From: Gemmatimonadaceae bacterium
GTDB taxonomy: Bacteria > Gemmatimonadota > Gemmatimonadetes > Gemmatimonadales > Gemmatimonadaceae
Direction of reading: 5' to 3'
NCBI GenBank assembly: GCA_030647905.1
Contig: JAUSJA010000034.1
Coordinates: 1 to 64,000 of the forward strand
Length of the DNA stretch: 64,000 nucleotides
Shown here: piece by piece, positions 23,567-31,266 of the stretch
Numbering within the stretch: position 1 is the first letter of the stretch
Layout of the letters: each line of letters begins with the position of its first letter
The notes under the pieces: generated by a model
The model's input: only the letters and a program-made list of their open reading frames with translations
What the model was told of the DNA's origin: nothing
Database searches by the model: none
Translations under genes and position numbers: made by a program

Positions 23567-23640
23567 CGCGCCCGGAGGAACTCGAATCCCCAACCTTCTG
23601 ATCCGTAGTCAGATGCTCTATCCAATTGAGCTACGGGCGC
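23567..23640 (-). tRNA. tRNA-Arg (ACG)
   Basis: On the minus strand the cloverleaf starts GCGCCCG at 23640 and ends at the discriminator at 23567. The anticodon loop CTACGGA gives ACG, reading CGU and, after A34 deamination, CGC and CGA. Its sequence is nearly the same as the tRNA-Arg (TCG) gene at 19439-19512. It is the last gene of a four-tRNA minus-strand cluster. Confidence 0.95.
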
Positions 23641-23672
23641 CCATGCGTTTTGCCTGCCTACCCAATCCTGCA

Positions 23673-23746
23673 TGGGCGGTACAAGACTCGAACTTGTGAC
23701 CTCCACGATGTCAACGTGGCGCTCTAACCAACTGAGCTAACCGCCC
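23673..23746 (-). tRNA. tRNA-Val (GAC)
   Basis: The acceptor stem GGGCGGT pairs with ACCGCCC. The anticodon stem CCACG surrounds the loop TTGACAT, giving anticodon GAC (Val, GUC/GUU). Discriminator A at 23673. Part of the minus-strand tRNA cluster. Confidence 0.95.
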
Positions 23747-23796
23747 CATCCAGCGAGCGGCGGCGCCGCAAATCTCGCCATTACCGCCCTTCCTTA

Positions 23797-23869
23797 AGCG
23801 GGAAACGGGACTCGAACCCGCGACCCCAACCTTGGCAAGGTTGTGCTCTACCAACTGAGCTATTCCCGC
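23797..23869 (-). tRNA. tRNA-Gly (GCC)
   Basis: The acceptor stem GCGGGAA starts at 23869. The anticodon stem CAACC surrounds TTGCCAA, giving GCC (Gly, GGC/GGU). The T-arm GGTTCGAGTCCC is normal. Third gene of the cluster counted from its 3' end. Confidence 0.95.
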
Positions 23870-23930
23870 AGTCTTTTCACTGCTGCCCCCCACACGACTC
23901 AGCCAATCTAATCGGTGTGGGAGCCGGTAT

Positions 23931-24003
<73 letters not shown>

Positions 24004-26064: not shown

Positions 26065-26940
26065 GTGGCTAAGGATAACGGCGCCGAGCCGCTCGAGCTT
26101 CCGGTTCTCCTCGTATACACGGCGAGGGAGAGAGCGCGTGCATTCGTGCGCGCGGCGTTTCCCAAGCGAAAGTGGAAGGTCATCACCGCACGCGACGTGA
26201 CGGAGTTCAGGACCACGCTGCGCAAGGTTCTCGTGGATGCCGTGCTCGTGGACGTCGGGTCGTCCGCTGCGACGACGAGCGCGGGGGGTGAATCCGTGAT
26301 GGGCCATGGTGCGACAGCCGCCGCCTCGCCGTCGGACGACACGTGGAGGATCGGCACTCTGGCGCACGAGTTCCCGAGCGCCCCGTTCTTCGGCATTTCT
26401 CCGCTGAGGGCCACCGACGCTCCGGCCATCGCGCGGTGCGCAGCGCTCGAGTTCTGCGACATCCTCGCCGACGGACTGGACGATGCGGTTGCCCGCGACA
26501 TCGTCGCGCCGCGCACTTTCTCCGCGAGATTCACCGCCGCGCTCGCGGATCCGCCGCAAACCCTCAGACTCCGCACCGAGATGCAGCTGGCGACGTGGCG
26601 GTCCATACTCGCCTCCGCCGGACGACCGATTCGCACGGCCGCGCTGGCGCGCGAAGTGGGCGTGAGCCGCGAGCACCTGAGCCGCCACTTTTCAGCGCCG
26701 GGCGCACCGAATCTCAAGCGCGTCATTGATCTCGTGCGAATGGTCGCCGCCGCCGAGTTGGCGAAGAATCCCGGGCTCGACGTGCGGGACGTCGCAAAAA
26801 TTCTCGGCTTCGCTTCATCGTCGCATCTCGCGGTCACGGCGCAACGCGTCCTCGGCACTCGCCCCGCTTCGCTGTCGCGGCTGCGAACCGTGGATCTCAT
26901 CGAGCGATTCACGCAGGGGAGGACTCGGTCGCGGGGATGA
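26065..26940 (+). CDS. AraC-type transcriptional regulator
   Basis: This 291-residue protein starts at GTG 26065. The C-terminal 100 residues form an AraC-like double helix-turn-helix. IRTAALAREVGVSREHLSRHF is the first HTH; VRDVAKILGFASSSHLAVTAQ, then GTRPASL, is the second HTH with its usual tail. The N-terminal 140 residues begin LELPVLLVYTARERARAFV and may be a degenerate receiver-like domain, as the acidic pocket and phosphoacceptor are not evident. No signal peptide. The target is unknown; it lies between the MlaF-like gene and the ATP synthase genes. Confidence 0.7.
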   Translation: MAKDNGAEPLELPVLLVYTARERARAFVRAAFPKRKWKVITARDVTEFRTTLRKVLVDAVLVDVGSSAATTSAGGESVMGHGATAAASPSDDTWRIGTLAHEFPSAPFFGISPLRATDAPAIARCAALEFCDILADGLDDAVARDIVAPRTFSARFTAALADPPQTLRLRTEMQLATWRSILASAGRPIRTAALAREVGVSREHLSRHFSAPGAPNLKRVIDLVRMVAAAELAKNPGLDVRDVAKILGFASSSHLAVTAQRVLGTRPASLSRLRTVDLIERFTQGRTRSRG

Positions 26941-27006
26941 GGGCCCATGTCCTTTTATCAGCTCCGGTAATTGGCACGCGCCGCGCGGCACGAGAGTCGC
27001 GGCAAC

Positions 27007-27043
27007 TTGCAGTACAAGATGGCTTGTGATATTTTTCACAAGC
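27007..27043 (+). promoter_or_regulatory. candidate atp promoter overlapped by a CRP-type palindrome
   Basis: TTGCAG (27007-27012), a 17-bp spacer and TATTTT (27030-27035) form a plausible sigma-70 promoter 80-110 bp upstream of atpA. A perfect palindrome GCTTGTGA-N6-TCACAAGC (27022-27043) covers the -10. Its core TGTGA-N6-TCACA is exactly the CRP consensus. Overlap with the -10 would suggest repression, but the promoter call is by eye. Confidence 0.55.
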
Positions 27044-27120
27044 TCCGAAGCGACCTTGGGATCGGCCTTCCGTCGACCCCCTGCTGCGTCTTATAACACG
27101 CTCTCAGCCCTTTCTGAAAA

Positions 27121-28701
27121 ATGGCCACCGAAACCTCTCTTCGCCCCGGCGAAATCAAGGACATCCTGCTTCGCGAGATCGAAGCGGCTGACCTCCGTGA
27201 CCTGGACGTTGAGGAAGTCGGTACCGTCCTCGAAGTAAAGGACGGTATTGCTCGCATATACGGCCTCTCCAAGGCGATGTCCGGAGAGATGCTCGAAGTC
27301 ACTGCCACCGAGACCGGCGAGAAGATCACCGCCCTCGCGTTGAACCTCGAAGAGGACAACATCGGCGCGGTCATCCTCGGCAACTACCTCGTCCTCAAGG
27401 AAGGCGATGAGGTCCGCCGAACCGCCCGCGTGTTCGAAGTCCCAGTCGGTCCCGAGCTTATCGGACGCGTCGTGGATCCACTCGGACGACCCATTGACAA
27501 CGCCGGCCCGATCCACGCCACTCACACCCGCAAGGTGGAGTCGCCGGCCCCTGGAATCATCGTCCGCCAGCCCGTGAAGGAGCCCCTCCAGACTGGTATC
27601 AAGGCGATTGACTCCATGATCCCGATCGGACGCGGGCAGCGCGAGCTCATCATCGGCGACCGCGGCACCGGCAAGACCGCCATCGCCGTTGACACGATCA
27701 TCAACCAGAAGGGCACCGGCGTCATCTGCGTCTACGTCGCCATCGGCCAGAAGAACTCGACGGTCGCATCCGTAGTCGAGAAGCTCCGCCAGGCGGGCGC
27801 GATGGAATACACGATCGTCGTGGTCGCCGGCGCTTCCGATCCGGCGCCGATGCAGTACATCGCGCCGTACTCCGGTTGCTCGATGGCCGAGTACTTCATG
27901 TACAACGAGGGCAAGCCAACGCTCTGCGTGTACGACGACCTCAGCAAGCAAGCCGCCGCCTACCGCCAGCTCTCCCTCGTTCTTCGCCGTCCCCCGGGAC
28001 GCGAGGCCTTCCCTGGCGACGTGTTCTATCTCCACTCCCGCCTCCTCGAACGCGCCGCAAAGCTGCGCGAGGACAACGAAGTCGTGGACGGGAATATCCT
28101 CAAGCCCGGCGGATCGCTCACGGCACTGCCGATCATCGAGACGCAGGCCGGTGACGTGTCGGCCTACATCCCGACCAACGTCATCTCAATCACCGACGGA
28201 CAGATCTTTCTCGAGGCCGACCTGTTCTACTCCGGTGTTCGCCCCGCCGTCAACGTCGGCATCTCGGTCTCCCGCGTCGGTGGATCGGCACAGGTCAAGG
28301 CGATGAAGACCGTCGCCGGACGCCTTCGCCTCGACCTCGCGCAGTACCGCGAGCTCGAAGCGTTCGCGTCGTTCGCTGCCGACCTCGACGCCGCCACCAA
28401 GCGCCAGCTCGATCGCGGCGCGCGCACGGTCGAGATCCTCAAGCAGAAGCAGTACCAGCCGATGCCGGTCGAAAGCCAGGTCATGGTCATCTACGCCGTG
28501 ACCAACGGCTTCCTCGATGCGCTTCCCGTCTCCGGCATCAAGGCGTGGGAGTCGGGCTTCCTCGATTTCGCGCACGCACAGTACCCGCAGATTGAGAGCG
28601 CGATCAGGAATCAGAAGGTTATGTCGAAGGAGATCGAGGCCGATCTCAAGCGCGCCATCGAGCAGTTCAACGAATCTCGCGGTACAGGCAAGGCCGCGTA
28701 A
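27121..28701 (+). CDS. atpA: ATP synthase F1 subunit alpha
   Basis: A 526-residue protein, slightly longer than usual. It shows [15 protein letters not shown] (N-terminal helix), Walker [40 protein letters not shown] and the alpha signature region with [16 protein letters not shown]. It forms the non-catalytic nucleotide sites of the F1 head. It is the first of four genes in the order alpha-gamma-beta-epsilon, with 3 bp to atpG. The delta and Fo genes (atpH, atpF, atpE, atpB) are not upstream, so the ATP synthase genes are split over at least two loci. Confidence 0.97.
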
Positions 28702-28704
28702 TCC

Positions 28705-31007
<2,303 letters not shown>

Positions 31008-31014
31008 TCGGCCG

Positions 31015-31266
31015 ATGCTGAAGGTTTCGGTGATCTCTCCGGAGAGTGTGCTGTTTGAAGGCGAGGCGACCTCGGTCGTCGCGCCCGCGTTCGACGGAGA
31101 GGTGGGAATTCTCCAGGATCACGCGCCGATGATGACGCTGCTCGGCAAGGGCACGCTCAGGCTTGGGAGCGGCGGTGGAGAAAAGCGATTCGACATCGAA
31201 GGCGGTTTTCTCCAGGTAGTGGAGAACAACGTGCGGATCGTTACGGAGCGCGCCACGGCGGCCTGA
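31015..31266 (+). CDS. atpC: ATP synthase F1 subunit epsilon, short form
   Basis: Eighty-three residues, starting MLKVSVISPESVLFEGEA with VGILQDHAPMMTLL, the N-terminal beta-sandwich of epsilon. The C-terminal helical hairpin (about 45 residues) that inhibits ATP hydrolysis in many bacteria is absent. The stop directly follows the sandwich domain, so this is a natural short form, not a visible frameshift. It lies 7 bp after atpD. Confidence 0.92.
   Translation: MLKVSVISPESVLFEGEATSVVAPAFDGEVGILQDHAPMMTLLGKGTLRLGSGGGEKRFDIEGGFLQVVENNVRIVTERATAA

Follow-up and report, generated by a model that had tools for sequence, protein, structure and literature searches.

The window, by which we mean the whole 64-kb stretch of DNA that was analysed, carries on its forward strand the genes of an F1 ATP synthase: atpA for the alpha subunit (27121–28701; Pfam, and NCBIfam TIGR00962 with E 3.6e-234), atpG for gamma (28705–29568; PF00231, E 4.3e-88), atpD for beta (29571–31007; PF00006, E 2.9e-72, the assignment as beta resting on its position after atpG) and atpC for epsilon (31015–31266; PF02823, E 2e-23). 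The best named matches of AtpA, with up to 87% identity, come from Gemmatimonadaceae and from other Gemmatimonadetes MAGs. A gene for an AraC-type HTH protein (PF12833; 26065–26940) is found directly 5′ of atpA on the same strand. Elsewhere in the window, tRNA genes for Arg, Val, Gly and Ala lie on the minus strand (23567–24002); the short open frames that overlap these four are probably no real genes.

In front of atpA, at 27022–27043 of the forward strand, stands a perfect 22-bp inverted repeat, GCTTGTGA-N6-TCACAAGC, which can be read directly. The full element, GCTTGTGATATTTTTCACAAGC, has 8-bp arms on either side of the hexamer TATTTT (27030–27035) and is located 77 bp upstream of atpA, the next gene downstream on its strand, which is followed by atpG, atpD and atpC. 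The sequence-only reading, which had reported a perfect TGTGA-N6-TCACA palindrome at the atp promoter, was correct on this point. The exact TGTGA-N6-TCACA pattern has a single copy in the window. With one mismatch allowed there are two matches against a mean of 1.34 in shuffled sequences, 37 of 100 shuffles reaching two, so that the palindrome is weak evidence if the window alone is considered. TGTGA-N6-TCACA is also the consensus of CRP, and enteric CRP sites have this same core and spacing. The inner 18 bp, TTGTGATATTTTTCACAA (27024–27041, forward strand), differ at one position from TTGTGAANNNNTTCACAA and have one mismatch in the 14 fixed bases of the Rex consensus TTGTGAAWWWWTTCACAA (TTGTGAAN4TTCACAA); on the basis of genome scans, conservation and this published consensus, we predict them to be a Rex operator.

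As the sequence-only reading had proposed, we scanned the genome from which the window comes (3.1 Mb, 98.6% complete) for the site. The form with flanking T and A, TTGTGA-N6-TCACAA, occurs five times exactly, against none for the reversed-pattern control. Apart from the one at atpA, exact sites (given as contig:position) lie 21 bp before atpZ (PF09527) of a separate F0 operon that includes atpB (PF00119; site C17:55409), before genes for a multihaem cytochrome c and then a molybdopterin protein (C23:20218), before a gene for a plastocyanin-like cupredoxin (PF00127; C26:288789) and between rex and a gene for arginine deiminase (PF02274; C30:9388). From its gene order, we take the operon at C23:20218 to resemble alternative complex III (ACIII); its nearest NCBIfam models are QrcA and QrcB, both below cut-off, and the QrcB match is that of a partial protein. 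When two mismatches were allowed, the genome gave 12 sites and the control four, and some of the weaker sites are thus due to chance; one with two mismatches is located 13 bp before nuoA (PF00507; C37:44799).

The conservation of the site upstream of atpA in relatives, another check that had been suggested, was assessed in 61 genomes, consisting of that of the window and 60 relatives; 45 of the 61 are at least 90% complete. We located atpA in 58 of them and examined the upstream DNA of 53 loci, 51 of which could be scored; one locus had no upstream DNA, and another, whose atpA was missed by tblastn, stands outside the 51 and has an exact TTGTGA-N6-TCACAA starting 60 bp upstream. The box was present with at most two mismatches in 43 of the 51 scorable regions (one mismatch in 41, two in two), starting 36–111 bp before the atpA start codon in 42 cases and 202 bp before it in one. 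Its columns have a mean information content of 1.83 bits, compared with 0.14 for the left flank. By a hand count, 28/29 loci of family f1 and 15/16 of family f2 have the box, as against 0/6 of family f3. The eight regions devoid of it are all six scored f3 loci and those of genomes G035 and G059, and two of the eight have a site with three mismatches; rex is nevertheless present in five of the six scored f3 genomes and in G035. Among named records, 16 of the 17 scored Gemmatimonadota atpA loci (18 in all) have the box, and 0 of 61 loci from outside Gemmatimonadota, where one site with three mismatches was found; the latter are a weak control because many atpA genes there are probably inside an operon. 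For two loci from named records (L114 and L128), the upstream DNA was too short to be used.

The conserved box coincides with what appears to be the atpA promoter. At the window locus, a candidate −35 element, TTGCAG (27007–27012, forward strand), is followed at a spacing of 17 bp by a candidate −10 element, TATTTT (27030–27035), within the operator, giving TTGCAG-N17-TATTTT over 27007–27035. Among the 43 box-bearing loci, a TTG is located 16–18 bp upstream of the box in 38 and 15 bp in one, and is absent in four; the arrangement TTG-N19 to 21-TA, which corresponds to a −35/−10 pair with 16–18 bp between the hexamers, is found in 37. Outside the box, the conserved columns are this TTG with the adjoining C and a GCT, the left flank being otherwise variable. 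A plain sigma-70 scan of 26500–27500 detected no promoter, and the promoter call consequently rests on conservation. A general TTG-N-TA..TTT grammar, applied to the window and three loci of its genome, gave three matches at a spacer of 20 and likewise three at a spacer of 14. Position 7 of the box is T in 39/43 cases at atpA, making the left half TTGTGAT rather than TTGTGAA, and A in 31/31 at rex; the T can be explained by the position belonging to the putative −10 element. The atpA operator is therefore predicted to overlap the −10 region. The earlier placement of the site over the likely −10, and of the promoter start at 27007, agrees with the TTG columns conserved in 38/43 loci.

The F0 operon presents the same palindrome in a different register. 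Its box was found in 27 of 30 loci (the best 30 of 54 genomes), with at most one mismatch in 26, and was missing from three. In 26 of the 27, a TA follows the TTG of the box itself at a distance of 19 or 20 bases; since the TA was sought over nine positions, single cases mean little, and the evidence is the constancy across loci. With this spacing, the F0 box would cover the −35 element. As to the F0 boxes themselves, the left half is often TTGCGA-A instead of TTGTGA-A (loci L219–L245), a recurrent one-base variant on the putative −35, and at one locus (L243, genome G031) a pair of closely spaced Rex-like boxes precedes the F0 operon.

Could the conservation at atpA be merely that of a promoter, with the palindrome incidental to it? 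The core of the box does overlap the conserved −10-like element, and the upstream TTG is conserved as well. However, the outer arms of the palindrome show no less conservation than the core, and the same palindrome recurs at F0, where its register is different, and a short distance before rex. We consider this explanation scarcely credible, and favour a binding site for a regulator.

The gene for a regulator matching the site is present. The genome has a single copy of rex (PF06971, E 2.2e-17), the product of which exceeds the cut-offs of five NCBIfam Rex models (best E 3.4e-75). All eight of its PDB matches belong to the Rex family, one of them being named only as an AT-rich DNA-binding protein; chains 1xcb and 3ikt, which we take to be Thermus Rex, are of the same family. 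In an alignment with Thermotoga maritima Rex, a member of the family whose complex with operator DNA is available (PDB 7wb3), 10 of the 12 DNA-contact residues listed for the latter (PMC8836258) are common to both proteins. The four named DNA-recognition residues, Arg48, Lys49, Arg60 and Gly61, are retained, and Glu34 and Lys43 differ.

The rex gene of this genome has an exact box ending 12 bp before its start codon. A box with at most one mismatch precedes rex in 31/31 loci scored, namely those of the best 30 of 54 rex-bearing genomes plus that of the genome holding the window, and starts 17–108 bp upstream of the point where codon 1 of this genome's own rex aligns. The rex and F0 loci were each taken from 54 genomes with the best matches first, so near relatives are favoured in these counts. 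Two of the 45 genomes that are at least 90% complete have no rex match. One of them (G059, 93% complete) also has neither an exact site nor an atpA box; the other (G029) shows a single exact site plus a two-mismatch F0 box, and its atpA region is truncated. These two cases point to a joint loss of rex and box. The atpA box also occurs in three incomplete genomes (G004, G016 and G017; 80–87%) that gave no rex match.

The sequence-only reading had assigned the palindrome to a CRP/FNR-type regulator acting directly on the F1 ATP synthase genes. In Corynebacterium, a CRP-type regulator, GlxR, is known to control ATP synthase genes. Cognate CRP/FNR proteins as a rule carry an R-E-R helix, and enteric CRP, which has one, usually acts at activating positions and does not require T/A flanks in its sites. 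A search for CRP/FNR-type regulators, which that reading had called for, did recover a single protein containing a nucleotide-binding domain of the CRP type (PF00027, E 1.3e-8; gene at C26:274197–274730), but with HTH_Crp_2 it scores 25.3 bits, short of the cut-off of 27, and its helix aligns as RESIAI with RETVSR of the Crp-family protein 4ev0, with Ile at the third Arg. PF00027 was found in 61/61 genomes and for this reason does not discriminate. PF00325 has no match in the genome, and the 480 bp before the assumed start of the CRP-like gene contain no TGTGA-type site; by contrast, a Rex-type box precedes every one of the 31 rex genes scored. A regulator with a cognate R-E-R helix was accordingly not found in this genome, where at 98.6% completeness such a gene could have been missed. 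The atpA site, moreover, covers the putative −10 and is not at an activating position; such a location appears unsuited to CRP-type activation and to fit a repressor better. We regard binding of a CRP/FNR-type regulator to the atpA site as very improbable. With the box preceding the scored rex genes throughout and the CRP-like protein divergent, the proposal of direct CRP/FNR-type control is not upheld; what survives of it is a conserved operator on the atpA promoter that would tie ATP synthase to the state of the cell, with Rex fitting better as its regulator. Two other HTH_Crp_2 matches below cut-off belong to different families, one being an iron-dependent repressor and the other ArsR-like.

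Across the 61 genomes, exact TTGTGA-N6-TCACAA occurs 174 times, compared with once in the control (read by eye), and the shorter TGTGA-N6-TCACA occurs 304 times, compared with 28 in the reversed control; only 174 of these 304 have the T/A flanks. The excess of the shorter pattern leaves room for a second, perhaps CRP-type, class of sites. The remaining 130 (28 being the control for the whole pattern) may represent a separate CRP-type regulon in these genomes.

Beyond atpA and rex, 33 of 34 further sites in relatives were considered among the matches listed, one at a contig end (G058:C241) being left out. Eleven precede genes for an ACIII-like cytochrome c and 11 precede cupredoxin genes. The other 11 include sites at cydA, coxB, an NDH-2 gene and a class V aminotransferase gene; a gene of this last kind is reported to be a Rex target in Caldicellulosiruptor. 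No energy gene is assigned to seven of the 33 (L197, L200, L201, L202, L205, L209 and L216). The candidate operators overlap or adjoin promoters of energy genes, as judged from the conservation of those promoters.

We consider it highly likely that the atpA palindrome is a Rex operator, at which Rex would repress transcription and NADH would relieve the repression. What supports this assignment is the sequence itself and how well it is conserved, the way it overlaps a conserved −35/−10-like pair, and the presence of a rex gene with a box of its own. For binding, repression and the response to NADH we rely on characterised Rex proteins, which are reported to be bound at low NADH and released by NADH (PMC8836258, PMC5355995). 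At a low NADH/NAD+ ratio, a Rex dimer would occupy the −10 region of the atpA promoter and keep RNA polymerase off; NADH would free the operator of Rex and so allow transcription of the F1 operon atpAGDC. A second copy of the operator would act on the −35 region of the separate F0 operon (atpZ, atpI, atpB and further genes), and the copies at the ACIII-like operon, the cupredoxin gene, rex and, more weakly, nuoA would receive the common signal. In this way a single NADH signal may reach the F1 and the F0 half of ATP synthase as well as some parts of the respiratory chain. If the palindrome is a Rex docking site, ATP synthase is probably redox-tuned together with these respiratory-chain parts.

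Rex control of ATP synthase is already known. In Streptomyces avermitilis, Rex binds and represses atpIBEFHAGDC at TTGTGATACGGTTCACGA, and its targets comprise complex I, cytochrome bd, an NDH-2 gene, ATP synthase and rex itself (PMC5355995). That operator has the left half TTGTGAT, as at atpA here, and both are located on an ATP synthase promoter. The S. avermitilis genes form one operon, however, whose operator lies over −35 and in the interval from −35 to −10, whereas here, in a different phylum, there are two atp operons, each with its own predicted operator, on −10 for F1 and on −35 for F0. What appears to be new is the lineage, the presence of a putative operator at each of the two parts of a split ATP synthase and the use of two registers. 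Among open-access PubMed Central papers, we found no report on Rex for Gemmatimonas, Gemmatimonadetes or Gemmatimonadota, and none on transcription start sites or promoters of Gemmatimonas.

Even if Rex binds, another input could dominate the control of atpA and leave Rex a minor effect, a situation compatible with the operator assignment. In S. avermitilis, atpI expression falls when oxygen is limiting whether or not Rex is present (PMC5355995), and other control may hence dominate the atp genes; the AraC-type regulator gene directly 5′ of atpA is a further point in its favour. The strong conservation of the operator argues against a minor role, and we think dominance by another input somewhat unlikely.

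Under the Rex reading, the affinity of Rex at atpA may be lower than at rex because of the left half TTGTGAT in 39/43 loci. We tentatively propose, as a possibility of well below even chance, that a single NADH sensor sets both halves of the split ATP synthase through two promoter registers, and that the NADH thresholds of the two operons may differ with register and half-site (TTGTGAT at F1, often TTGCGA at F0), so that F1 is tuned against F0. The arrangement suggests that a split operon could keep common control by means of one operator per half. It also offers, for a lineage that has received little study, a redox circuit that lends itself to testing: one NADH sensor would govern both ATP synthase operons along with an ACIII-like complex, a copper electron carrier and, probably, complex I. 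For annotation, TTGTGA-N6-TCACAA in these genomes is better labelled Rex than CRP, which corrects a likely misreading.

A further observation concerns the box at C30:9388–9405 (L004), which lies between divergent genes, 12 bp from rex and 11 bp from the arginine deiminase gene. The sharing of one box by these two genes suggests Rex control of a fermentative route to ATP.
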